Positions 1,628-54,300 of a stretch of DNA of 64,000 nucleotides are shown here, in pieces; the stretch's first letter is position 1, and the number at the start of each line of letters is the position of its first letter. Made by a program: the position numbers and the translations under genes. The stretch is from Aurantiochytrium sp. KH105 (taxonomy: Eukaryota; Sar; Bigyra; Thraustochytrida; Thraustochytriidae). Location: NCBI GenBank assembly GCA_003116975.1, contig BGKB01000013.1, forward strand, positions 186,001-250,000, given 5' to 3'. The notes below the pieces were generated by a model, which was not told where the DNA came from, did not search any database, and saw only the letters and a list, made by a program, of their open reading frames with translations.

Positions 1628-4600
1628 ATGGGCTTCTTCTCTTCTGTCGACAGCCAGGTCGTCAAGGCGATCAAGAGCATCAAGACGGGCGCAAAGTATA
1701 TCGTGTACGTAGCGTCGCGAGGCAAAGGCGAGTCAGCGTGTCGTCGTCTCCTGCGTGACTTTCTAATCTCGCCAATCTGAACGACGGAAGGACTGACGGA
1801 CTAACTGGCTGACCATAGCCTGGTGAACGAGAATGTTGGCGACTCGGGAGCCAAGGCACTCGCAGGTGCGCTCGAAGGCAACAACACGCTGCTGGATCTC
1901 GAGTAAGTCTTCCCAGCAGCACGAGCATCTACTGATGACCACCTCGACTCACGTGCGTCTAACCTCTCTGCTTCTCTAGTCTTGGGCGAGACAACGTCGG
2001 CGCAGTGTAAGTTGACAAACCTTATTCTCGTTCACCCGCGCTTGTAGATAGCTCACACATCAAGCCCCAACAGAATCTTTCTCGACAGCATCGGCGCCTC
2101 CGGCACCAAGGCTCTGGCCAAGGCGCTCGAGACCAATTACACCTTGAGATCGCTCAGGTACGTTCACAACATTCTCTTGCAACGCACGACCGCAAACAAT
2201 TAAAGAAGGCAAGCCCAAAAACTTACCATCTTCGCTTCGTCCTGTAGTCTTCACGGCAACATGATTGGCGCATCAGGTGCAAAGGCCATGGCCAACGCCT
2301 TAAAAACCAGCACATCTCTCCAAACGCTCGAGTAAGTGGCTCTTTTACATTCGCTTTTCATTCTTGCAACACATACTCACTCACATGTACAACGCGAACT
2401 CTACGTAGCCTCGGGGCAACTGGACTCGGCGACGCTGATATCAAGCTCATTGCTGGCTCATTGCAGCAAAATGGAAGCCTTCACACACTCCTGTAAGTAC
2501 ATTTGCATCACTCCGCATCATCACATCGTGACTGACGTACCAACTTCACAATGCACATATGCAGCATCCAATCAAATGCAATCTCGAACAAGGGCGCGAC
2601 CTCGCTCGCGCAATCGATGGAAATGAACCTGGCGCTTCAAAAGATCAAGTAAGTCATGCTACAATCGCACCACAAAGAAAAAATCAAAAAAGGGGGGCAA
2701 CACCAAGTCTGACAATCGCACAGTCTCAGCGACAACCCGATCACGGACAATGCTCTCGTTGACCAAATCATGGCTGCCGCAAAGCGCAACAAGGAAAACC
2801 CAAGCATGAAGATCGACGCGAGGTGGCTCGAGGCGGTCAATGCCAGCATTCTTCAAGGCGATGAGCATGCCTGGGGGCGCGCCAAACTCATGATCGTGGG
2901 CCAAGGCGCCGCAGGAAAGACCTCGACCGTGCGTTCGCTTCTGGGTCTCGAACCTGTCGCAACGCACGAATCCACTGAAGTCGCTGACGTGCATCGCACG
3001 CGTGCAATCGACTGGCAAGAAATTGCCGGCTATGATGGCGAGTTCGACATGCAAGTCCGCAAGGCCGCAAGACGCCGTCTCCGGCCCGACAAACCCCGCG
3101 TCAAAAGTCTGCCCCGCCGCGCATTGGACGCCTTGCGCCGCCGCACTTCGCGCGCGTCAACGGCGACCTCGGTACTCACCTTGTCAGATTCCGAAGACGC
3201 CCCCGATGTCACGCCTCTCGTCCCGCAAGACGAATTGGCACAGCGATTCGCGCTGACCGAGGCCGACCAGTTCGTTCTCCGCCAAGCCGCAGGCAGCGAT
3301 GCCGACGCGCTTCAGTTCGATCTGAGCTTTACCATCTGGGACTATGGTGGCCAGGAAGTCTTTTATGCGCTGCATCACATCTTCCTCACCGACAAGGGGA
3401 TCTACCTTGTCGTCTTTGACATGCGCGAGCTTGCGGCTCTTTCCTCGCGCCCTAAGGCTCTGGCCAACCTTCGCTTTTGGCTCAACAGCATCAAACTCCA
3501 TGCGCCAGAAGCCCCCATCCTCATCGTTGGCACCCACTTTGACAAGGTTCACGCTGGCGTTTTCCAAGCCGAAGGCTTCATCCAGGAAGCCTTGCCGCTC
3601 GCGGAATCGTATCCGCAGGTCGTACGCTCGGGTCCAGGTCGTTATGTACACGCCATTGACAATATGTCTGCTTCGCCTGATCGCGCCGAGGCGCTACGCA
3701 CGGCCATTGCAGGCATCGCCGTCACGCAAGATTACGTCTTGCAGCAAGTTCCCCTCGCATGGCTCAAGGTTCACGAGGATCTACTGCACATGAACGAGCC
3801 CTACATCTTCTACGATCAGGTGGTCGAAATGGCTACCGCCTACGGGCGCTCAAGACGCGATGCGGACGCCATGCTTGCGTACTTTAACGGACTTGGCGTC
3901 GTCGTTCATCTCACAAGCTCAGAGACGTTGTCCCGGGTCGTGGTCGTCGATCCGCAGTGGCTTCTCGACAAGCTCTCTCGTGTCATTGCTGACGATGTGC
4001 ACGCGTCCCGCATTTCCGCATCCGTGGAACTTCAAGAAGCCGGGATCGTCGATGCCTTTCAACGGCTGCGACAAGAGGCCGTTGCGACACGTTCGCTGCT
4101 CGAATTTCTTTGGCACGGTGAGGAGGTCGACTACCTTGTGGCGTTCATGGATGCCAATCTGCTTTTGTGCAATTGGACCTTTGCTCCGGACGCTGAAGAG
4201 GACGAGTATCTCGTCTCGGGCCTCCTTTCCACGTCTATTCCTGATGTGGAAGTGGACGACTTCGAGCCCGGCCTCTCGTGCATCTTGGACTTCTCCGTCA
4301 GCTCTTTGCCCAATGGTGTCTTTCACCGTCTCGTCGCGCAATGTATTGCGTACGGGAGCCGTCCCGAAGTCCTGGGGGATGCAGAGCCGGTCGCCCCGAA
4401 GCTGGATCGAACCAAGGCGCTGCTCGCCTTTGGCCCAAACGAGTTTCTTATCCGCGCCGATGGCGACGTGCTCGAGGTCTCGATTTCCCAAAACGCAGAG
4501 CGTCCAGCCATGGTCGCTTGTGTCCTCCAAGACATGGTGAGCGAGCAAGAGGAAACTGTGTTTCCCAACCTTCCGTGTACCCTGCTTCTCGTTAGTCCCG

Positions 4601-5196
4601 TGACTGGGGCTGTCGTTTCGTATGCAGACGTCGCCAGCGCTTTCATGAGCGGAGAAGACATGGACCTCGTGGGTCGCAATGGAGAGGAGGACTCCTCTGC
4701 TAGCTTTGCGCCGTTTTTCGCCGAGGATCACGCTGATATCCCCGACTATTCTATTCCAGACTTGTGCGATGGCGAAACAACCCATGTCTTCCTCAGCTAC
4801 GAGCCGACCCTGGGAGGAGAGCTTGCCGAAAACCTCAAGCTCAAGCTCGAGGACCGTGGTCTGACCGTTCTGCCAGCCGAGGGCGACGACGCAGATGCTC
4901 AGCTCGAAGCTATTTCGCATGCCCGCGCCTACATTCTTGTGCTGACCAAGGGCGTTTTTGCCCTCGGTGCAGTAAAGCAGCAGCTAAAGTGCGCGCTCGA
5001 CGCCAACACACGAATTGTTGTCGTGCGCGAGGCTGATGCTGCCCGCGCGTCGTACGCGCCAACGTGCGATTATATCGACACCGCACCAAGCTTCTTTCGA
5101 GATCAGTTCGCACCTTCAGAGTCTCTCGCGATGCAGCGAAAGCAGCATCGCGAGGAGGCCTTTTACGGCGAGCTCATTCGCCGGAGTATTGGGTAG
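1628..5196 (+). CDS. LRR-Roc-COR-TIR protein (ROCO-type GTPase receptor)
   Basis: Multi-exon gene: 1628-1704, 1819-1902, (1980-2006), 2074-2157, 2248-2331, 2409-2492, 2565-2648 and 2724-5196. All introns are phase 2 with GT-AG ends. It encodes 998 aa with the 27-nt third exon, or 989 aa without it; both keep frame. The N-terminus MGFFSS fits an N-myristoylation signal. Each 84-nt exon encodes one 28-residue RNI-type LRR (L..N.IG..GA.ALA.AL..N.TL..L). The last exon carries a Ras-of-complex GTPase: P-loop GQGAAGKTS (about residue 234), G3 as WDYGGQE, G4 as GTHFDK. A COR-like region follows, then a C-terminal TIR-like domain starting THVFLSY (about residue 861). LRR-Roc-COR architecture is that of ROCO proteins; the TIR tail suggests signalling or NAD+ cleavage. 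The position where NADase TIRs carry Glu appears to be Gln (VKQQL), so catalysis is doubtful. Alternative: simply a ROCO protein with a Rossmann-like tail. Confidence 0.85.
1980..2006 (+). other. 27-nt microexon, a truncated LRR unit
   Basis: A nine-codon segment flanked by CTCTAG (1974-1979) and GTAAGT (2007-2012). It encodes only the start of an LRR (LGRDNVGA). Both inclusion and skipping preserve the phase-2 frame. Skipping joins two full 28-residue repeats cleanly, whereas inclusion inserts a partial repeat. It may be an alternatively spliced microexon or the remnant of a deleted repeat exon. Confidence 0.55.
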
Positions 5197-12870: not shown

Positions 12871-15800
12871 ATGGTCGTTCGCAAGCTTATGTGCGCAGCG
12901 AACCTGCTGCATCGTCGAGGCTCCCATGAGGAAGAGGGCTTCGATGGCAGTAGTCTTGGAAATCAGAGACTTCAAGTTGCCGTTCGCGAGGCTCGGACCT
13001 CGAGGACAAGGTCCGCATCATCACGCAGATCGTCGGCTTCACGTCGGTCGCGAGCTTCGTCCTCACGTCGATCCTCCAGACTTCGGGGTGCAGACAGCAC
13101 GCAGCATGTAGACGCTCTCGACCAGGATGACGTAGACGCTCTCGACCAAAATGATATGGATGATCGCAATGACGCGATCAACAACGAAGATGCCACTCAG
13201 GAGGCTAATCTTGCAGAAGAAGAAGAAGAAGAAGAAGAAGAAGAAGAAGAAGATTTCCTGGAAGGCCTGGTGGAGGACCAAGACCAAAACGAAGAAGAAG
13301 AAGAAGAAGAAGAAGAAGAAGACAATGATGTCGCGGAGGAGCTGGCAAACTTGGTCGACAGAAATGCGGCAAACGTCTCCGGAGAAACGATCGGAGACTT
13401 GGAGGCGCAGATCCGAGCCCTTGCGGAAATCCAGAGCGCGCAGGCCGGAGAAGTGAGTAGTCTCGAGGAACAATTTGGCCTTCTCGAAGGGGGTCTAGAC
13501 CCTGAGGAGATGGACCACCTTCTCGCCCTGAGTCTGGAGTACGAGATGGAACAGGCAATGAACCAAGAAAGACTTGCGCTCGACAACGAGCAAGAGTCCG
13601 AAAATCTCGACCTTGGCCTGCGCATGTCCAACGAGCTGCAAGTATACCTTGAAAATTGGGCAAGCAGCGTAGCGACGGGCGACCTTTACACGATGGAGCG
13701 GATCTTTCACGAATTTGGTCAGCAAAATGCGCGCCTGGTGGAGGCGGAAGACGGCACGCAGTCAATCGCCGTGGAGGGCAATCTATCCTTCCAAGATCTC
13801 ACCATTCCTGCGCTTCCACCGCGGGTCATCATCAGCGGAAACCTCTCCTTTCGCTCCTGCTCGCTTCCCGACGACGACACAGCGCACTGGACATGCAGCC
13901 GTCTTTCACTTGTAAATTGTCATGGGGATACGCGCACTCTCATGGAGAACATTGAGTCTGCGCACAAATCCGCGAGCGGCGTGCTCGGCCTTCAGGGCCT
14001 TGCGCTGGACGCTATGTCCTCGAGCGAGAAGCCTCTCTCGCTTGAACTTGACAATTGCCAAGATCTAACGCACTTGGAAATTGCAGGCGACGAAGCCGTC
14101 GTCATGAACAAACTTAAAGTTAAGAGCTGCCCCGCTTTGGTGGCCGGGCCGGCAAAGCTCAAGGTACTTCAAACCATGGAACTCTCGAATCTGCCGCGCT
14201 TAGAGTCCTTTGGGCGCTCTAACCTGCATCTTGGCGAGCTGACGCGCATCCATCGCTGTCCGTCTCTCAACACTCTCTGTGACGATGATCTTCTCATCGC
14301 TGGCGTGCTCAGAATCGAAGATGGGAAAATTGAGCGTATCTGCGAGGGCGCTCTCCGCTATGTGCCTGCGATCGAGAACGATGCGGCGAGTCGAGGCGAG
14401 ACCTCTCCGAGCGTGACCATCGAGTGCATTGAGACGGACACACCACTTGCGGCCCGCATCGATAGTCCTGAAATGGACGTGCATTTCGCTGGCAACAAAC
14501 TCCCAGCCAAACTCTGCGAAGGTTCCATCATCGTGCGTTCCTTCTCTGTGAGCGGGCCCTGGTCTTTTCACCAGCGACTCATGGAGCAATATGGCACCGA
14601 AGCCGAGCAATCCGGGACAGGCCGAGGTTCGCGCAGATCGCACCGCGGCCCCAGCAGAGATGCTGGGCCTCTTGGCATCGTCGTAGACGAACTTGAATCG
14701 GAGGAGCGTTTCCACGACGAGGATTCGGGGCGATCGTCGCGAGCTTCGCAACAAGCAGCAGCGCCAACACCGTCTCCGGAACCACTGGGGCTGCGCAACT
14801 GGCTCGACGATGTACAAGCAACTATGTCGATTCACGTGAAGCGCCTTCCCGTGAAGGATTTCCGCGGCAAACTTTCCTCGCCCTTGCTTCATTTGGAGAG
14901 CCTTCCGATGGAGGACTTTCCCGATTGGAAGTGCGAGGCGGAAAAGGGTTCACTCCAGTTGGTGAGCTGCCCGTTGCTGGAGGTGGTTTGGCCGGATGAC
15001 GCACCGTCGGTTCCAATTTCCATTAATGTAGAAGAATGCGCAGCCCTGGAGAGACTTTCGGACGAAGAAGTGCAACTGGGAAGCTTTCGCATCTCGCGAG
15101 CTCCACAGATGCAGCGGCTGGCGCGGTCCATCGTGTTTACCGGACAGGAGTCAATCTCCATTGTTGATTTGCCGTCGCTGACAAGGCTTTCCGACGATCT
15201 GGCTTTCTTCAAAGATGATGTTACACCGCAACTGTTCTTGCGCAGTGTCGGTATCAAAAGCCTTTCGGATATCGAAGGCAGCGGGTTCACTCAGCTTCGT
15301 GTGGAATCCTGCGACAAGCTCGAGGATGCGAGTCTTCGGGGCTTGTGGCAGTCTGTGGAAATCGTATCTTGCGACAAGGTAGCACGCGTCGAGGTTGGCC
15401 TGACAACTCGCGGGGGTTCTGGCGAGCTCACACTGAAAAAGCTTCCTCTCTTGCGAGACATTAAGCTTCGCACGGGATGTCTCAGGCTCAACATATCTGA
15501 CTGTCCCGAGTTCGTTGGTGAGACGATCACAGGTGACCATGATAGCGATGCCGAAGACGACAGTGGGAGTTATAGTGGTTCGTCAATGAGAAAGCCTCTG
15601 GACATTGGTCTGCTGTCAGGTTTACGCTTTCTATCGTTGGCCGGAAGTTCAGGGCTCCGCACGATTCCCGGTCCCTTGCCGCATACTTTACGGAACCTCG
15701 ACCTCTCGAACTGCCCCAACCTGGTTCACATCCCAGACGATGTGTTCAACGCCGCTCCCGGACGTGTCATACTCCGATTAGATCGCTGCGCATCGTTGCA

Positions 15801-18800
15801 AGGCATTCCTCCAATTCACGTTGCGTCGCTGAGCGCCGAGGGCTGCGTGGGCCTGCGCGAGGTTGGCGCTGGGTTCCGGGCGGGTTTGGTGTCTCGCGTC
15901 CGTGAAGATGGCTACATTGTGCGACTTTCTAGCGCACTGGGCGATGTCAACTTTCGCGGATGCGTAGCTTTGGAAAAGTTCGAGATGAAGTTTGTCTTGG
16001 GTGATCTCGACCTTTCTGGAACTGCCGTACGGGAACTACAGGCGATGCGCGTCTTGGGAAACCTGAGTTGCACGCACATGGGCAACTTGGAGATTGTCCA
16101 CGCGGGGTCTCTGGTTGGTCAACAACAGCCAGGAATTCGGCGTTTGCCAATCAATGCGGAGGTGCGCTTTCGGTATTGCCCTCGTCTGAAGTCGATCTCC
16201 ATGGAGCGTGTCTTTGGCATGCTTGACATTTCGCACTGCATGAGTCTTGAAGAGCTCGCGGGCCCGCGCATGGAGGTCGGCGTCGACTTGCCGCTGGTAA
16301 CAACGTGGGACACCAAGCCACTGTTGGACTCCTCGTATGACATGCTCAAGCCCGGGATGCTGCGGCTGCGCAACTGTCCATCGCTCCGCAAGCTACCGAG
16401 CCATTTGATTTGCAGAGGCGGACTTGATGTGCGCTATTGCATGGGCTTGGAAGATATGTCAGGAGTCAAGCTGGAAGTTGGTTTTCCGGCGCTCGGGTCT
16501 CTTAGTCGCTCGCGGCAGAACGACACTACCCGCGCGGAGGCGTTTGCGTCGACAACGATTATCGGGTGTCCAATGCTCGAGGCCCTTCCATCGCGAATGG
16601 TCATTTACGGAGACTGCATCTTTGCCTTTCTCGATGGTCTCAAGGGTCTTCCCTCGGAGGCACTTTATTATGGCCATCTCATTGTGTCGTCGTGCCGTGG
16701 GTTCACAGCTGTTCCGTCGCGTATGCGCGTTCGAGATACTTTTGCAATTCATAGCTGTGAAACCTTTGAGGGCGTTCCGGCAGGATGGCACCATGAGAAT
16801 CCTCCGGCGCTCCTGACGATTGCCGCGGCGCGTCGTCTTTTACGCAGACGCAAGAGCGTGCAGCAGGCGGAGAGACGTTTAGACCGTACAATTCCGTCGC
16901 AATGGCGTGCCAATTCAGCTCAGCTTGAGATGTGTTTGCTCGAGCATGCGGCCGAGCAGCTGCGGCAGCGGCAGCGTGCGTGGACGGCAAATTCAAAGCC
17001 GGTGGACTACCAATGGCTTCGAAGGAACACCTTTTTGGGCGGGGCGCGACGCTCGATCACTCGCATGCGGGACCGACGGCTTGGGTCGTCTTCAGGAGCC
17101 CGGTCGGCGCGAGAGGGGTCGTTTTCGTCGTCGGACGATCTGGACGTGCCAGATTCCTCCTCGATGGTCTTGCTTCCTCGCGAACAGGAGGAGTTGGCAC
17201 GGCTTGAAGAGGAGACTCTGCGCGAGGAGGCCAACGCAAGCAGGAGTTATCACACAGAAGGAGGCAGCGACAACGCGGGACAAGACGAAGACGGTGGCGG
17301 TGGCAACGACGATGAAGTATACATGCGCGAGTTCACATCAGAATCCAACCTCTTTCGTGAGGACGACGAATCCAGTCAAGATCTTGCAGCGCAAGACCTC
17401 GCAGACGAGGACTACGATTCAGACGACGCTGAAGAGCTTCGCGAAGACGACGAAGTCGCCACTACGGATCCGTGGAGCGGCAATGTTTCCAAGTGGGAGC
17501 GAACGCGGCTATTGCATCGAACTGTTATTTCCTTGTGCCCTGGCGTGAAGCGTATTCCCGAAGGCGTCGAGGCACAGTCCCTAGCCTTGGTGAATCTCAC
17601 TGAGCTTGTGGATGTGAGTGAAGATCTCCGGGTCGAGGTCAATCTTTGGGTCAATTCGGCGCCGAAGCTAGAGCAATTCCCGGCGACGGTCATTGCACGC
17701 CTCGCACAGTTTGGTGCCGAGGCGAGGCTCCAGATGGCGAGGTTCAACGAGTACTGCAGCTCGAATCCGGAAGCGGTCGTGCGACGGCCGTCGAACTGGC
17801 TTGCACGCGTGCGAAGACGCACGGGTGTCCCTCCAGAGCGACCGATCACGTCGCGTGCTACGATGATGCTGAACGCGACGGGCATTGATGCGGAGGAGCT
17901 TCGTTCGATGCGCGAAGTGTCTCTGCAGGATGCCGGCGATGCGCTGGAGTGGGTCACGTGGATGGCTGACGATCTCTTTCAAGGTGACCTCGGGACTTCA
18001 GATGCACTGTTTGATCGCGAGGAGGAGGAAGAGGAGGATTTGGCGGAGGATGACTGGGATGGGGGCGATGCAGATGCGCTCAACGGCAATGGCAACGGGA
18101 GCCTGGGCGGCGAGTTCGAGGACTTTCGCACGGCCGTGTTGTTTTGGAAGGCTGCTGCAACGGGTCGCCCACCGCGTCTGATGCGCATGCTCTTTGAGAC
18201 GGAAGACGACTATGAAGTGCTTTCTTGTCTTGACCGCGTCGTGGACGCGGCGTATCGGGGCAGCGTGCTGACATTTCTGGACATGCTGCGCAGATCGCGT
18301 GAGTACCGCAATCCTACGACACGACGCGGGCTTGCCGAGCGTGTCGTGGAGGTCCTGCATAATGTTTCTCAGGACGAGGAGGCTCGCGATGAGCTTTCTG
18401 CCCGCATGGCGGATGCGATTGACGCTTGTGAGGACAAACCGATTTGGGCGTTGAACCAGATGGAGGTGGTGGGGCTGATCGCACATGCACGGGGAGATCG
18501 CGAGGCGTTGCGAGCGCTGGGGAGGCGCCTGGTGAATCTTGACATTGTGCACGAGGCGGCACGGAAACGCATCGAGCAACGAGGCGGTTTTCTTGATGTC
18601 GACGATGTTTGCGTGTATTTGCAGTACGAGATCCAGTTCCGACTTCCGCTGAACCTCCCTGTATCATCACATTTCATGGTGTATGGCAGCACGATTCCCG
18701 GCGAAGAGGTCATTCGCGTGTCGCGTGCAGCCTTGAATTTGTCTGACGAAGACTTTGAGGCATGGCTTTCTCGATGGCCCGAGTGGACGCGTCAGGATCG

Positions 18801-19080
18801 TTTTGAGTATGCTCGTTCTTTACAGTGGGAAGACCTGCCACGGAACGGGAAGCGTGTGAGCCTTGGTCGCTCGACCCTGCTTGGTGATGATATTCCAGAT
18901 CCTGTTCGGTTGAGTGGGGCGACCTACTCGATGGAGGAATTGCTCACGCATTGGGTGCGCACAGGCATGGACTTTAGCAACGTTCGGCACTCGGTGCAAG
19001 AGATGGCCAAAGGTTTGTCGCGATGTGACATCGTGTTTGAGGATGACGAAGATGTGGTCGTACCAGTGAGCAAAAGATAA
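12871..19080 (+). CDS. Giant LRR protein with C-terminal NEL-type E3 ubiquitin ligase domain
   Basis: One open exon of about 2069 aa from the ATG at 12871. The N-terminus is Arg/Ser-rich, then strongly acidic with two poly-Glu runs (13216-13251, 13291-13320). From about residue 300 to 1300 there are irregular leucine-rich units with a recurring C-P-x-L and LP pattern. Acidic linkers follow, then a second short LRR patch (about 1545-1600). The C-terminal ~300 residues (from about 1750) match the novel E3 ligase (NEL) domain of IpaH/SspH/SlrP bacterial effectors: FLDMLRRSREYRNP, then the catalytic Cys-Glu-Asp (Cys about 1853, codon 18427-18429), the WALNQMEVVGLIAHA helix, the DVDDVCVYLQYEIQFR segment and FEAWLSRWPEW. 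In bacteria the LRR selects the substrate and the NEL Cys takes ubiquitin from E2. Here it is in a eukaryotic gene with host-like composition, so transfer is probably old. Alternative: a structurally similar but inactive helical domain. Confidence 0.85.
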   Translation: MVVRKLMCAANLLHRRGSHEEEGFDGSSLGNQRLQVAVREARTSRTRSASSRRSSASRRSRASSSRRSSRLRGADSTQHVDALDQDDVDALDQNDMDDRNDAINNEDATQEANLAEEEEEEEEEEEEDFLEGLVEDQDQNEEEEEEEEEEDNDVAEELANLVDRNAANVSGETIGDLEAQIRALAEIQSAQAGEVSSLEEQFGLLEGGLDPEEMDHLLALSLEYEMEQAMNQERLALDNEQESENLDLGLRMSNELQVYLENWASSVATGDLYTMERIFHEFGQQNARLVEAEDGTQSIAVEGNLSFQDLTIPALPPRVIISGNLSFRSCSLPDDDTAHWTCSRLSLVNCHGDTRTLMENIESAHKSASGVLGLQGLALDAMSSSEKPLSLELDNCQDLTHLEIAGDEAVVMNKLKVKSCPALVAGPAKLKVLQTMELSNLPRLESFGRSNLHLGELTRIHRCPSLNTLCDDDLLIAGVLRIEDGKIERICEGALRYVPAIENDAASRGETSPSVTIECIETDTPLAARIDSPEMDVHFAGNKLPAKLCEGSIIVRSFSVSGPWSFHQRLMEQYGTEAEQSGTGRGSRRSHRGPSRDAGPLGIVVDELESEERFHDEDSGRSSRASQQAAAPTPSPEPLGLRNWLDDVQATMSIHVKRLPVKDFRGKLSSPLLHLESLPMEDFPDWKCEAEKGSLQLVSCPLLEVVWPDDAPSVPISINVEECAALERLSDEEVQLGSFRISRAPQMQRLARSIVFTGQESISIVDLPSLTRLSDDLAFFKDDVTPQLFLRSVGIKSLSDIEGSGFTQLRVESCDKLEDASLRGLWQSVEIVSCDKVARVEVGLTTRGGSGELTLKKLPLLRDIKLRTGCLRLNISDCPEFVGETITGDHDSDAEDDSGSYSGSSMRKPLDIGLLSGLRFLSLAGSSGLRTIPGPLPHTLRNLDLSNCPNLVHIPDDVFNAAPGRVILRLDRCASLQGIPPIHVASLSAEGCVGLREVGAGFRAGLVSRVREDGYIVRLSSALGDVNFRGCVALEKFEMKFVLGDLDLSGTAVRELQAMRVLGNLSCTHMGNLEIVHAGSLVGQQQPGIRRLPINAEVRFRYCPRLKSISMERVFGMLDISHCMSLEELAGPRMEVGVDLPLVTTWDTKPLLDSSYDMLKPGMLRLRNCPSLRKLPSHLICRGGLDVRYCMGLEDMSGVKLEVGFPALGSLSRSRQNDTTRAEAFASTTIIGCPMLEALPSRMVIYGDCIFAFLDGLKGLPSEALYYGHLIVSSCRGFTAVPSRMRVRDTFAIHSCETFEGVPAGWHHENPPALLTIAAARRLLRRRKSVQQAERRLDRTIPSQWRANSAQLEMCLLEHAAEQLRQRQRAWTANSKPVDYQWLRRNTFLGGARRSITRMRDRRLGSSSGARSAREGSFSSSDDLDVPDSSSMVLLPREQEELARLEEETLREEANASRSYHTEGGSDNAGQDEDGGGGNDDEVYMREFTSESNLFREDDESSQDLAAQDLADEDYDSDDAEELREDDEVATTDPWSGNVSKWERTRLLHRTVISLCPGVKRIPEGVEAQSLALVNLTELVDVSEDLRVEVNLWVNSAPKLEQFPATVIARLAQFGAEARLQMARFNEYCSSNPEAVVRRPSNWLARVRRRTGVPPERPITSRATMMLNATGIDAEELRSMREVSLQDAGDALEWVTWMADDLFQGDLGTSDALFDREEEEEEDLAEDDWDGGDADALNGNGNGSLGGEFEDFRTAVLFWKAAATGRPPRLMRMLFETEDDYEVLSCLDRVVDAAYRGSVLTFLDMLRRSREYRNPTTRRGLAERVVEVLHNVSQDEEARDELSARMADAIDACEDKPIWALNQMEVVGLIAHARGDREALRALGRRLVNLDIVHEAARKRIEQRGGFLDVDDVCVYLQYEIQFRLPLNLPVSSHFMVYGSTIPGEEVIRVSRAALNLSDEDFEAWLSRWPEWTRQDRFEYARSLQWEDLPRNGKRVSLGRSTLLGDDIPDPVRLSGATYSMEELLTHWVRTGMDFSNVRHSVQEMAKGLSRCDIVFEDDEDVVVPVSKR
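18100..19050 (+). other. NEL E3 ligase catalytic domain coding segment
   Basis: This segment encodes the candidate NEL domain. The thiol-ester cysteine sits in ACEDK, equivalent by eye to the SCEDR-type motif of bacterial NEL enzymes. Helical segments before and after it are spaced as in that family, and the domain ends in the typical WP-x-W block. It forms the C-terminus of the protein, the same LRR-then-NEL order as in bacterial effectors. Confidence 0.8.
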
Positions 19081-48356: not shown

Positions 48357-51300
48357 CTATTCATCTATCGAGGCCACAAGGCTGTGGGCCCGTAGCTGAA
48401 GCTCGACAATGAGCGACTCGAGTTCGTGCTCTTTCGTATAATTCCGTGGCGGACTCGTCTTGCTGTTAACCGACACCGTCTTGTAGGTGCGCTTCTTCGT
48501 CGCCAAAGAGCTATGCCGTTTACTTTTGGCCGGCGAATCTTCTTCTTGCTCCCGCCATGAAAGGACTTCGAGGTGATCAAAGATCTTCCTCTGTAAATCC
48601 TCATGGAATCTTTCCTTCTCTTTGCCTCGAAAGTTCCAGCCATTTTCCACCGCAAGAAATTGCTTGCCTTCCGGTAATTGATTGCCACCATCGGCTATCG
48701 TCCCTGAGCTTTCATTTTCAGCATAGTCTTCCGATGAATCAGCACCTTCATCACCAGATGCGGGTTGTATTCCCAATGCTGCGTGCACCGCGGAGCAACA
48801 GCCAGGTTCCAGTACGACGATGATGACTCTGGCTTCCCCGATCGACGACACGCTGCCGAGCTGCCGCTTGAGCTCTGCTACTACCGAGGAGTCCTCCTTT
48901 CCGATAACGCACATGGAGGGAACTCGGCGCGGCTCCTCGGGTTCCCGGGTGTGGAAGCCCGCGAGCGTGGCTAGCTTACGAATCATGGCCTCTTCTTCAA
49001 AGTGACGACGGCGATACGGGATGATGCGGCAGACCTTGAGTGCCTCCTGGGCGGCTTCAAAATACTCTTTATAGTTGTCCGCATACTTGACTTCGGACTC
49101 CTCATGCTCGTCTGCGCCACCCACGCTAGTTCTGAAAAGGTGACCAGAGAGGTCTTTCTCAAGGTTGCGGCGAGCGATTCTGCATCTGTACTCTTTGGCT
49201 TTGCGCCTGACCTCGCTTGCCTCGGACTGGTAGGACCTTGCAAGTTCCTCTTCATCAGTCTCGTTCGCCAGGTCTTCCAGCGTAGCCGCTTTGTCCATTT
49301 CGGCTCTCGCTTGCGCTCGGAGAGTCTTTACGTCGTCGTTTCCTGAATCGTCCCACGTCCATGGCTCATCTTCAATTGCTCGCCACGGACTGAAGCGTCC
49401 ATCTTCCTCGGCAAGGAAGAAGATATGCTTCTCCAAAGGCACGCTCATGCAACTGAAATGATCCACAGCAAACTTGAGTTCGGCGAGACAAAAAGGGCGA
49501 AAGAGAACATCCGTCGTCAGCACCATCACAAAGCACTGCGAAGCCAAAACGCCCCGCTGCATCGTTTCCAAGGTGATCTCCGCTGCGCGCATGTCGACCC
49601 ACGCCGTCATCTGACTGCGCTCGAGGCCAGCAGCCAGGTCTTTGACAATGCCCGCCGCCTGCTGCTGCATGTGCGAGAGGAAAAAGTGGTACGTTGGCAG
49701 CGCAGTAAGTTCGTTGCTCAGGGCAGGTTCGTGATACCATTTGGGGTATTTCTCTTTGTCTCTTCGAGACAATCTCAGCGTCTGTTCGATCGGCTCGAAA
49801 CGCGACTTCAATCCCTTGATACTTCTGTGCAAGCTCAGAATGCGACCCTTCACGGGTCCGGGCACCTTGTCATACAGGGACTTCCGCTTTGAGGAGCTTG
49901 AACGGTCACTCCCGGACATGCGAGTCGATTTGCGGCTCGACTTCCGGCTCGATCTACGGCTCGACCTACGCCTGTTTCCGGACTCTCGCGAACCGAGGTT
50001 CTCTTCAATTTGGCTCGAGGGCTCGCTCTCGGAAGCAAGGATTTTGTCGAAGAACGGATGACGCAGAAGATCGTCGAGGCTGATCCGCTCGTCGGGTTTG
50101 CCACGAAGACACAGGCGAACCAGATCGCGGGCAGCCTCAATTTCATCTTCGCTTCCGCGCAGCCCGTCCTCCCCTGTACCAACACGTTCCTCTTCATTGA
50201 CTGACTGTGACTCACCGCTCTTCGGTCTGAGCTTGATACGGTCCATGCGCTCTTCATCCAGCGCGAGCCAGTTCATGAGCTCCAACTTGTCTCCATTGTG
50301 CACCAGATTATCATCGGACTCGTCGACCATGAAGAGCTTGGTGCCCGAGAGAAGCTGGTACAACAGCGCGCCAAAGCCCCAAATATCCTGGGAAGCGTCC
50401 CCCTTTGGCTTTTTCGCACCATCAAAGATCGATCGTGCTACTTCGGGTGCCACGTAGCCGGTACTTGCTTTCTCGCTCACCTCCGTCTCAAACTCCACAG
50501 AGGCGTCGAGATCGATCAGCAGCCACTCCTCTTGTCGATTGAGACCCTCCCCGGTCGGCGATTCGCGCCAGGCTTTAGACACCATCTGGCCCCCCTCGGT
50601 GTTGTCGAGGAACGTGTTTGCGCTCGACTTGCTGGTGCGGACCGCATTACGTGGCTTGATATCACCATGAATGCGATTGCTTTCGTGGAGGTGATGCAAG
50701 GCCAGGGCAAGCTGGTGCGAGATCTCCCGAACTTTATCCAGATCGCGACCTGCGAATCGTTCGGTGTTGATGGCCTCGAATAGCGACCGAGAGCCTCGTG
50801 GCATGACCAGGCACTTCTCCTTGTCTAGAAGGCGACGATCGGCCTCAGTCTCGCGATCCAACAGTTCCAAGCACCCGAGGAGGCTCTTCCCGTTGTTGAC
50901 CTTCCGCGCCTCGATTTCGCGGATATATTGTTCTTTCTTACGCATGATCTTGAGCGCCACAGGTGTATTGGTGCGGATGTCTGTTGCAAAATGCACAGCG
51001 CAGGTTTTGGATTCGTGAATTGGCGGCCCCTCGGCAATGTTGTAACGGTTGAGGTATGTACCATAGGTCTTGGCCCACTCTTTGGAGTTCTTGTTTGCAA
51101 GCGCAAGCGAACGAACTGAGCGCCCAATTTTGTCTTCCGTGCCCATCAAGAGCAGACCGTCTTCGAGAGGCAGCTTGCCATTGATAAATTCCTGGCAGAA
51201 GCGCTCGGGAAGTGCGTACGTCCGGCCCGCTGGGCGACAATCCAGCAGAGCATGGAATATCTGGACTGCGTCTTCATCGCCTTCATCGCGGTCAGACTGG

Positions 51301-54300
51301 AGCCAAAGATGATAATCGGTGAAAGGTGCTGCAGTCGGAGCATGCTCAGCGAGGATCGACACGAAAACCGCAAAGATGTGAGCGTTTTCGCTTGCCAGCT
51401 GATGAGCAGCTGGCGTCCAATAAGAACCGGAGGCATCGAGAAGGTACTTGCCAATGGCTTCTACGCGCTCCGAACGTGATAGAGGGTTGAGAACCGGCAT
51501 TCCTTCCTCATCTTTTCCGACCTGCTTGGACCAGAGCTCCGAAAAACTGAGGGGCTCTGGGATGTATGGCATGCCACTATGGAAGAGAGAGAGTTGTTAG
51601 CTTTTCGTCAACAAAGTGTCACGGACAAGTGTAAATGTAATTAAAGAGACTTACACAACTGAAGTCAGCGTAAAATTCGCGTCAAGCAGACGGGCAAGAC
51701 GCTCATAAATGACCACGTCTAGTCTACTGTTGTAGCTGATTCTAGGTATGTCGAAATATTGATTGCGTAGATGAGTTTTCGACGGGACGATACGGCAAGC
51801 GTGAGATGATGTTCGTCAGCTGTGTTCGATCAGACAAGTACAGTCACATGCATGTATAGTTGCGCTGTCAGAAAATCGAAACCTCCGACTTACATAAGTC
51901 TCGTTATGGACTCGTTCTTGGTCAATAGTGTACAGAGCGCTTCGGCGCCCTTCAGACCGAACTTAGTATTGTCCAGACTATTTGCATGCCAATTTTCAGA
52001 GAGTAAGCGATATTGAAATCGCAAGCGCGAGAAGAATAATTCAGCTTCAATCTCATTTGCGTCGGACTTCGTGCCCTTATACATCTCATAACTTACTTAA
52101 GCGTTGTCAGTGTGCTGGTCGCAGCCAGCGAAGCGCACAGTGCCTCAACACCGGCGTCCTTGATCGAGTTGTCTTCTAAACTATATATGGAGACACGATC
52201 AAAGCGGAAAGAAAAGAAAAGGAAACAAAAGGTAGTTAATGCAGGCAAAGATCATCTATCGTCAGACATGACCGTTGTTGCCAATACGAAAGGAAGTATT
52301 CAAGAAAACTTCAAACTTACGAAAGCGTTGTGAGGGTCCCATTCTTGCTCAGACCATAGCTGAGAGCCTTTGCGCCCGTAACACCAATCTTGTTGAGTCT
52401 CAGACTGTAAAGAATCAAAGTATTGTAAAATGAAAAAAAGCAAAGATCATCGTCCATCAGTCATACATGCCAGCTGAAGACTTTCGAGCTCTTCAAGGTC
52501 ACACTGCGAGCGTCCGCTCCCATCAACGAGCATCTGTCCTCCTTAAGTGTATGGAAAGACCTTCTTGAGGATCTCAAACTCACATCAGCATCGACAGCGA
52601 CTTGCTGGCCGCCAGCCCTTTACCCAAGAATTTGGCTCCCTCATCACCAATGCCGTTGCCACCGAGGCTGCGCGTGAAAATGTATCATCGAATTGAGCAC
52701 GCAATGAGGCAGCAGACCCGTCCATAACTCGTCAGTTAAGGTCTGTTGACCGTGGTACAGTAATCGAACTTTTTCATTTGTGCCATCCCAAGTCCACATA
52801 CGACTACCGGCACAGCTTAATGCAGTGCATGAGGAGCCTTCACGAGGTCTTTGAACTTACTCAAGCTCTGTTAGCGTGCTGCTGACCGCCAGTACTTCGC
52901 CCAAACATTTGGCGCCCATATCGTCGATTTTGTTGGCGCTCAGGCTGCGCGTGTCGTGCCATAATCGGACGAAGTACACAAGGAAATACGTACGCACGTC
53001 CGAACAATCGTCCATTAGTTGTGATCATCAGCGATGTCAGGTCAAGATGAAGCGTCGCGACCATCATACAGACATGCGTTGACAATTGCCCACGATGCCA
53101 AGATGGGCCTTCCAGAAAGGACCTTTCGAACTTACTTCAGCTCCGCGAGCGAGCTGCTCGCCGCTAGTACTTCACTCAGCGCCTTGACACCTTCGAAACC
53201 AATGTTATTGTCGTTAAGACTGTATGTAGAAGAGCAGCAGCAAGTGGGCACGCGAGAAGCCACGCAGGTCAGTGCAGTTCTCTATCAGTTGAGTGTGTTG
53301 ATCATACCAAGACAATTAAAGGGCTTCATCGCCGCCCATTGCAACGCCTTCTCAGCTACACGTTTACGTGCGGTGCACGTTCGGGCTTTCCTAAAAACGT
53401 TCAACTTACGTCAGCGTCGCCAACGTGCTGCTGGCCGCCAGCCCTTTACCCAGCGCCTGGACACCGTCCTCGCCGATATTGTTACGTCCAAGGCTACAGG
53501 TTTTGCACCACAATTGCGTATAGCGCACAAGAAAGAATAAGAACGGTCTTTCGTTAGTCGTGTATGTCGATCAAGTCCAGGTAAGTCAAAGAATCGCTGC
53601 CACCACACACTCATGCACAGCCACCCGGCTGTGCGACTGTGAGAGCCTTCCCGAGAATTTTGAACCTACTCGAGCGTCGCCAGCGTGCTGCTGGCCGCCA
53701 ATACTTCGCACAACACCTTGGCACCCTCAATGCCAATCTTGTTACCCACGAGACTAAGCGATTTTTACCACCATTGCGCAAAGGAAACAAACAAGCGCGC
53801 AAGTAAGAACGATCGTTTGTCAGCTGTGTCTGTCGATCAAATCTGGACAAATTGAGGCATCGCTGCTGCCACACCTTCATGGACAGCCACACAGTCGTGT
53901 GAGTGCGTACGAGAGCCTTCTACGAGGACGTTGAACTTACTCAAGCGTCACTAGCGTGCCGTTGACCGCCAGTCCTTCACCGAGCGCCCTGACACCCTCA
54001 TCTCCAATGTTGTTGTCTCCAAGGCTGCGCGTAAAATGATAACATCGCGCAAAGCATGCGAGGAAGAATGCAGGTCATCATGAAATTTTTCAAGCAAGCA
54101 CGCAAGCCAGTAGTAATAATTTGTTAGTTGCGACTCTTCATTAAGGCAATGCCATGCAATTCAAGACTCAGTTCCGCCACCGCACCTTCATTCATAGCTA
54201 CACAAATGGATGCAGTGCATGCAAGAGCTTTGCTCAAGAAAGGTGAACTTACTCAAGCGTCGTCAGCGTGCTGCTGGCCGCCAGCCCATCACGCAGCGCC

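Follow-up and report, generated by a model that had tools for sequence, protein, structure and literature searches.

A host-encoded family of LRR-NEL proteins, probably ubiquitin ligases of old common ancestry with bacterial effectors, in Aurantiochytrium

Introduction

The closest described systems are IpaH, SspH and SlrP of Shigella and Salmonella, in which N-terminal leucine-rich repeats (LRRs) are followed by a NEL ubiquitin ligase domain. E2 and ubiquitin, which NEL chemistry requires, are eukaryotic. NEL has been treated in the literature as a bacterial family whose members act inside foreign cells; the two-step cysteine mechanism of these enzymes is described in PMC9320238 and PMC12506513, and the role of Asp397 of IpaH9.8 in the former. 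RING-between-RING and HECT ligases likewise pass ubiquitin from E2 to a cysteine of the E3 and on to the substrate, the route proposed here.

We have analysed an LRR-NEL gene in a window of 64,000 nucleotides of contig BGKB01000013.1 from the thraustochytrid Aurantiochytrium sp. KH105. The gene probably belongs to a family of LRR-NEL ubiquitin ligases that the host encodes at 16 nuclear loci and that shares its ancestry with the bacterial NEL effectors, the split between the two being old.

Results

Gene and domain organisation

The mapped parts of the gene are collected in Table 1. Fifteen strict LRR units of the C type were counted in the protein, whereas 500 shuffles averaged 0.33 and never exceeded 3. 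The units lie ahead of the PF14496 match, which bears out the LRR-then-NEL order proposed in an earlier note on this DNA. A Pfam LRR_EndoS match (E 0.00023) is under the family cut-off. The LRR array is presumed to be the substrate-binding part. A ubiquitin-interacting motif (UIM) guessed by eye near residue 215 receives no support from Pfam.

Table 1. Features of the LRR-NEL gene, in window positions
Feature	Position	Strand	Remarks
LRR-NEL gene	12871..19080	+	intronless standard-code ORF, 2069 aa; predicted start is the first ATG in the open frame (12871); stop 19078-19080
Poly-Glu acidic low-complexity stretches, close to the N-terminus	13219..13330 (end approximate)	+	
Leucine-rich repeats LxLxxCxxLxxLP	14041..16779	+	15 strict units, residues 391 to about 1303
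Extra LRR-like units ahead of the NEL region	17536..17682	+	residues 1556-1604, by eye
NEL catalytic domain (PF14496)	18265..18792	+	Pfam match, residues 1799-1974
CxD catalytic motif Cys1853-Glu-Asp1855	18427..18435	+	Cys1853 codon TGT at 18427-18429
Asp1911	18601..18603	+	from alignment with bacterial domains
C-terminal module, LLGDDIPDPVRL..TYSMEELLTHWVRTGMDFSN	18865..19029	+	approx. residues 1999-2053; where the bacterial helical E2-binding thumb sits

The NEL domain

The Pfam NEL profile matches the domain with an E-value of 4.8e-25 and 88.7 bits, well over the cut-off of 24, and the conserved blocks listed in the earlier note are present. In a phmmer search of PDB sequences, all 11 distinct sequences found up to E 1 were IpaH or SspH, counting entries named 'invasion plasmid antigen' as IpaH (best E 3.5e-11). 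The AlphaFold2 model, calculated from an alignment whose bacterial rows were 29 of 42 chosen relatives, has pLDDT values near or above 90 across most of the NEL core, and NEL structures fill the top 9 of 145 Foldseek matches. The catalytic core is thus predicted to adopt the all-helical NEL fold, and by profile score and CxD motif the domain is assigned to PF14496. The C-terminal NEL domain read by eye in the earlier note is upheld by two of the checks suggested there, profile and structure prediction, and the catalytic cysteine that it placed at about residue 1853 is Cys1853 of the CxD motif. The domain matched no RING-between-RING or HECT ligase among Pfam and PDB sequences, and none occurs among the Foldseek matches listed for its model.

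The CxD motif is present in all 32 copies in this genome and in 42/42 bacterial relatives examined. Asp1911 is invariant across the window domain and 29 bacterial domains and conserved in at least 90% of the 16 paralogs, and we infer that it is the counterpart of IpaH9.8 Asp397. NopM and other rhizobial, Pseudomonas and Burkholderiales NELs share with the window protein the CxD motif and, in the D-D/E-V.VYL block, the Asp, at 20-25% identity to the window protein over the aligned region and 24-35% to the paralog L009 over best segments.

A family of 16 loci

The genome holds 32 NEL places, every one above the Pfam cut-off, on 29 contigs of 86 kb to 1.14 Mb. They form 16 pairs with NEL identities of 96.8-100% within pairs, whereas different loci are 34-75% identical to one another. 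The earlier note had envisaged that the host encodes one copy, which would be an E3 domesticated in an unusual way; host encoding stands, the single copy does not. The partner of the window gene (G000:C24, L030) is 100% identical in its NEL domain, and the NEL parts of this pair differ by seven synonymous and no nonsynonymous changes. Pooled dN/dS is 0.064 for NEL versus 0.172 upstream. We conclude that the NEL domains are under strong purifying selection.

Three other family members carry eukaryotic domains, namely SPRY in two (E 1.1e-15 and 2.2e-12) and SAM in one (E 8.4e-17). SPRY and SAM domains are usually intracellular, and TRIM proteins are SPRY-bearing animal E3s. TRIM proteins thus combine E3 and SPRY in one chain, as do two of the paralogs, but here NEL replaces RING and LRRs are added. 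The window gene is surrounded by the eukaryotic genes TRM1, EMP70 and one for an eIF-type WD40 protein. Its codon usage correlates with that of the pooled window housekeeping genes at 0.72, equal to Sda1; the 176-codon NEL domain by itself reaches only 0.27. By eye, the start of the protein shows no obvious signal peptide.

Unlike IpaH, SspH and SlrP, these are nuclear genes of a eukaryote with no type III secretion context. The window protein is very long and its LRRs are of the Cys type, different from those of the bacterial proteins. The genome also contains fragments resembling an omega-3 PUFA synthase, in line with a thraustochytrid; the best reaches 930 bits against a family cut-off of 1010, and because 11 of 14 control genomes likewise give matches under the cut-off, this is no more than suggestive.

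The C-terminal module

The interval 18100-19050 that had been marked as NEL does contain the domain; it also takes in about 86 residues past the profile match, at the place of the bacterial thumb. That this part appears to depart from the bacterial one had been overlooked. Family members have in common a C-terminal module where the bacterial proteins have their helical E2-binding thumb. The module profile was found in none of the 42 bacterial ORFs examined, NopM-type proteins included. Compared with bacterial tails (Bradyrhizobium, Paraburkholderia and Herbaspirillum rows only), it gave P 0.47, and P 0.032 over 20 columns once the W..W start was added. SspH1 and SspH2 fit the model over chain ranges that extend into their thumbs, and the tail of the model has low confidence. 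As judged from sequence, the bacterial thumb of two long helices is not recognisable in the protist module.

The tail pattern L.G...DPV...W...TG appears U-box-like by eye, an idea picked only after the motif had been noticed. Pfam U-box matches neither the 16 tails nor their consensus; a U-box search of the genome gives 24 matches, no NEL gene among them; a PDB profile search with the module returns no U-box, and a fold search with its single-sequence model (pLDDT 47) no match. In hhalign, probabilities for module against U-boxes are 24-38% with the own-genome set and 4.1% and 9.8% with other sets, versus 89-99% for true U-boxes. The first comparison with own-genome U-boxes scored 24-26 (maximum 12.4 in 60 shuffles), against 37-105 for true U-boxes; when only the four best U-boxes of the genome are used, it falls to 17.7. 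Adding three plant U-boxes gave 19.6, reached by 1 of 200 shuffles (19.9), with 15.2 for the best of 72 decoy windows; global alignment scored 13.3. The resemblance appears faint, and we hold the U-box reading as speculation only, because the Pfam, PDB and fold searches are negative and true U-boxes score higher.

Bacterial relatives

A scan of genome contigs, with a query alignment headed by L009 and a pattern step that may miss relatives, matched 250 stretches, 138 of which encode a relative. The best 80 of the 138 prokaryote loci have best-segment identities of 24-35% and come from 11 genera; by name, 79 are Pseudomonadota and one is labelled Mycobacterium. From those 80 loci, 42 were hand-picked for spread, with the Salmonella locus deliberately omitted, and these served for the tree, the CxD count and the tail scan. 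The tree has no usable root, holds a single eukaryote and includes its long rows, and the program cautions about long branches meeting in it. It shows one deep branch with the 16 own loci on one side; neither side nests in the other, and the bacterial side is deep too. None of seven stretches from the viral-contig scan was confirmed, all 150 plasmid records are below 60% identity, and the single phage match is an E. coli phage record at 30.2%. No recent bacterial donor was found in the genome-contig, viral-contig, plasmid and phage searches.

Discussion

In the mechanism that we propose, the LRRs (or SPRY/SAM) would hold a protein of the own cell while a charged E2 docks either on the C-terminal module or on the NEL core. 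Ubiquitin would then move to Cys1853 as a thioester, aided by Asp1855 and Asp1911, and from there to a lysine on the bound target. E2 docking is left without explanation because the bacterial thumb is not recognisable.

The lack of a recognisable thumb would also suit inactive scaffolds that keep the NEL fold for binding instead of catalysis. We regard this as quite unlikely, given CxD in all 32 copies of paralogs as low as 34% in identity, the invariance of Asp1911 with 29 bacterial domains and the low dN/dS. Still less probable is that a parasitic protist secretes these proteins as effectors against another organism; bacterial relatives do work in foreign cells, but the window protein has no obvious signal peptide by eye and three relatives bear the usually intracellular SPRY or SAM. 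Least of all do we credit contamination or a recent insertion from bacteria, even though NEL is presented in the literature as a bacterial family and the domain's own codon usage correlates poorly. Contamination is ruled out by the paired copies across 29 large contigs and by the eukaryotic genes in the window, and the whole-gene codon correlation, bacterial identities of 24-35% and fused SPRY/SAM domains argue against either event.

On the origin of a host-encoded family, for which the earlier note inferred transfer, we give an even chance to an ancient acquisition from a proteobacterium with later expansion. The Pseudomonadota names of 79 of the best 80 prokaryote loci, the common LRR-NEL order and the position of the 16 loci on one side of one branch are consistent with it, but no donor lineage emerges and neither side of the tree is nested. 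The reverse, a NEL ligase of eukaryotic origin whose catalytic core proteobacteria took as an injected effector, seems to us somewhat unlikely. In its favour are the deep diversity (34-75%) of loci within one genome, a chemistry that depends on eukaryotic E2 and ubiquitin, and the spread of the best 80 of 138 bacterial loci over 11 genera; against it, the tree holds one eukaryote without a usable root and its bacterial side is deep as well. Bolder, and unlikely, is the proposal that eukaryotes have a further class of cysteine E3s, combining NEL core, C-terminal U-box-like E2-docking module and LRR/SPRY/SAM, with bacterial effectors as stolen cores whose module was swapped for a helical thumb.

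Under the host-encoded ligase reading, an enzyme known as an injected bacterial weapon is here a well-kept gene family of a single-celled eukaryote, and its apparently different docking end could help explain the weapon's origin. Sixteen loci with intact CxD open tests of where the NEL fold arose and of its use on the cell's own proteins, and the apparently different module serves as a natural experiment in the transfer of ubiquitin from E2 to NEL cores. In the parts available, a Giardia inventory (PMC7029713) names PF14496 solely among RING-type search terms. Should the LRR/SPRY/SAM-NEL proteins prove to be regulators or receptors, they would represent a ligase class easily overlooked in eukaryotic ubiquitin inventories.

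A NEL domain in a eukaryotic gene

The window gene encodes a protein with an acidic N-terminal region followed by an array of LRRs and, at its C-terminus, the NEL domain proposed in the earlier note. That proposal was borne out by an HMM search, in which the Pfam NEL profile matched residues 1799–1974 with an E-value of 4.8e-25, and the catalytic cysteine said to be retained is indeed present, as Cys1853 within Cys-Glu-Asp. The LRRs have the form LxLxxCxxLxxLP, and 15 units fit it strictly, where 500 shuffled versions average 0.33. Under a looser pattern, residues 300–1700 hold 31 units and 200 shuffles average 7.15. Pfam detects these repeats weakly, its LRR_EndoS match (E 0.00023) falling under the cut-off.

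The contig carrying the gene (C13) is 752 kb long, in an assembly of 76 Mb and 367 contigs. The neighbours of the gene are eukaryotic, including by Pfam match TRM1, EMP70 and an eIF2A-domain WD40 protein. Codon usage over the whole gene resembles that of the host (correlation 0.72, with Sda1 at 0.72 and other window genes at 0.62–0.94). The NEL domain alone (176 codons) gives 0.27, which we take, short of proof, to reflect small-sample noise.

Features of the window and of two further contigs of the same assembly (G000)
Feature	Location	Strand	Remarks
LRR-NEL ORF	12871–19080	+	2069 residues, intronless
Roc-COR GTPase	2770–5196	+	E 8.4e-18, 1.8e-13; 7.7 kb from NEL gene; sub-threshold TIR_2 match at the C-terminus (E 3e-5)
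ORF of 731 aa	6082–8277	+	No Pfam hit at E 0.01
Protein kinase (E 1.9e-22) fused to TIR_2 (E 1.3e-7, over cut-off)	48357–51572	-	Second TIR protein within window
Two divergent NEL genes, within ~5 kb	C31 323992–329179		One copy
Two divergent NEL genes, within ~5 kb	C93 135042–140343		Other copy

The NEL family of the genome

A PF14496 profile search of the organism's own genome found 32 places, all over the cut-off, and there were no matches in 14 control genomes. Pairwise identity sorts the 32 into 16 pairs (NEL domains 96.8–100% identical within a pair and 34–75% between loci), which on these sequence grounds we read as two haplotypes; the partner of the window gene, with a 100% identical NEL domain, lies on contig C24. 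The two neighbouring NEL genes on C31, and likewise on C93, are a local cluster.

CxD is kept in all 32 copies. Across all 16 pairs, 154.5 synonymous and 32.5 nonsynonymous changes fall in the NEL domain, a dN/dS of 0.064. The ratio is higher in the C-terminal module (0.117) and in an upstream stretch of at most 360 residues (0.172), so constraint is strongest on the catalytic part. A domain scan of the 15 other loci, one per pair, revealed SPRY domains in two (E 1.1e-15 and 2.2e-12), a SAM domain in one (E 8.4e-17) and a sub-threshold Arm repeat match in one. The SPRY and SAM fusions show that the NEL domain belongs to eukaryotic proteins.

Elsewhere in the assembly, omega-3 PUFA synthase-like fragments occur on C72, C155, C61 and C290. 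They are the one pointer to a thraustochytrid as the source, and a suggestive one, since family matches below cut-off also occur in 11 of the 14 control genomes. The C61 fragment starts 32 bases from the contig start, where tandem ACP repeats perhaps broke the assembly.

Relation to bacterial NEL proteins

A GTDB scan found 138 relatives. The best 80 of these were kept; their best segments are 24–35% identical to the own-genome paralog L009, and 79 of the best 80 are Pseudomonadota by name. The best by E-value is from Paraburkholderia madseniana (E 1e-16, 29% identity to L009). Twenty-nine bacterial alignment rows are 20–25% identical to the window domain, and eight residues, Cys1853, Asp1855 and Asp1911 among them, are invariant throughout. 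Spacing from Cys337 of IpaH9.8, together with the conserved block, suggests that Asp1911 is the counterpart of Asp397 of that protein. Catalysis has been tied to the Asp of CxD and to a second Asp, Asp397 of IpaH9.8 (PMC9320238).

In a tree of 42 bacterial domains and 16 protist domains, the latter all from one eukaryotic genome, the two groups lie on opposite sides of a single branch (support 100/98). The parts of this branch on either side of the drawn root measure 1.21 and 0.17 changes per column; the root is a midpoint root only, and the program warns of long branches meeting. The tree fits a single common origin of the 16 protist loci, with transfer in either direction.

Among the bacteria, one NEL ORF (L078) groups with rhizobial ones and continues for ~413 residues after the domain; its contig, labelled as the actinobacterium Mycobacterium sp. 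KBS0706, is possibly mislabelled or contaminating. Pseudomonas loci such as L049, L050 and L066 have very large ORFs (at least ~1280–1300 aa, running off the locus edge) and a divergent NEL that has a CADAG motif and sits on a long branch (1.55).

The C-terminal module

In SspH1, the NEL core is followed by a thumb of two long helices (residues 623–697) that binds E2-ubiquitin (PMC12506513), whereas the protist proteins share a module at that place. Alignment of 16 tails gives the pattern L.G....DPV.L......WS...LL.HWV.TG.DF.N, part of which is missing in paralog L017. One tail, searched against the genome, returned 30 matches, all in NEL genes, the L017/L018 pair not among them. No match to the module profile appeared in 42 bacterial ORFs (best E 0.46, filters off), and comparison with a set of bacterial tails revealed no similarity (P 0.47); adding the W..W start gives P 0.032 over 20 columns, which correspond to the end of the NEL core that both sides have in common. 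In structure fits, the stretches of SspH1 and SspH2 that are matched extend into their thumbs, with the protist tail poorly modelled, so that part of the thumb may be retained. On sequence grounds, we claim that the protist module differs from the bacterial one.

By eye, the module looks U-box-like. Against own-genome U-boxes its profile score is 24–26, where 60 shuffles reach at most 12.4 and NEL-alignment windows before the module at most 13.1 (windows overlapping it rise, as expected); real U-boxes score higher, at 37–105. With other U-box sets the score is 17.7–19.6, and one of 200 shuffles reached 19.9. No U-box was named among the Pfam and PDB search matches of the module. Modelled alone, the window module has short strands (21–23, 29–30, 38–39 and 44–46) and then helices (47–57 and 61–72), an arrangement compatible with a U-box in what is a low-confidence model (pLDDT 47) with no fold match. 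We offer the U-box reading purely as a hypothesis.

Proposed function

Among the PMC papers listed by our searches we found no description of a NEL ligase from a thraustochytrid or other protist; automatic NEL labels for protists may exist in other databases. PF14496 features in three papers, one of which, a plant NLR paper, refers to NEL in an NLR gene of a green alga (PMC7145615), seemingly via an LRR superfamily match. A figure legend in an Aurantiochytrium transcriptome study labels a gene 'sspH1: nuclease' (PMC12028430), which hints that such genes are present, transcribed and unrecognised in a thraustochytrid; the label could rest on LRRs alone.

Homology, predicted fold, catalytic residues, selection and fusions rest on data; recruitment, E2 docking and ubiquitin transfer we infer. 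A cell protein would be recruited by the LRR, SPRY or SAM part, a charged E2 would dock on the NEL core or the C-terminal module, and ubiquitin would pass to Cys1853 and on to the target, the working mode of the bacterial NEL effectors, with a ubiquitin thioester as in HECT and RBR enzymes. The natural setting of these ligases would be regulation or defence within the protist itself. A defence role is a guess, with the Roc-COR protein, which has a weak TIR match, and the kinase-TIR protein lying in the window too.
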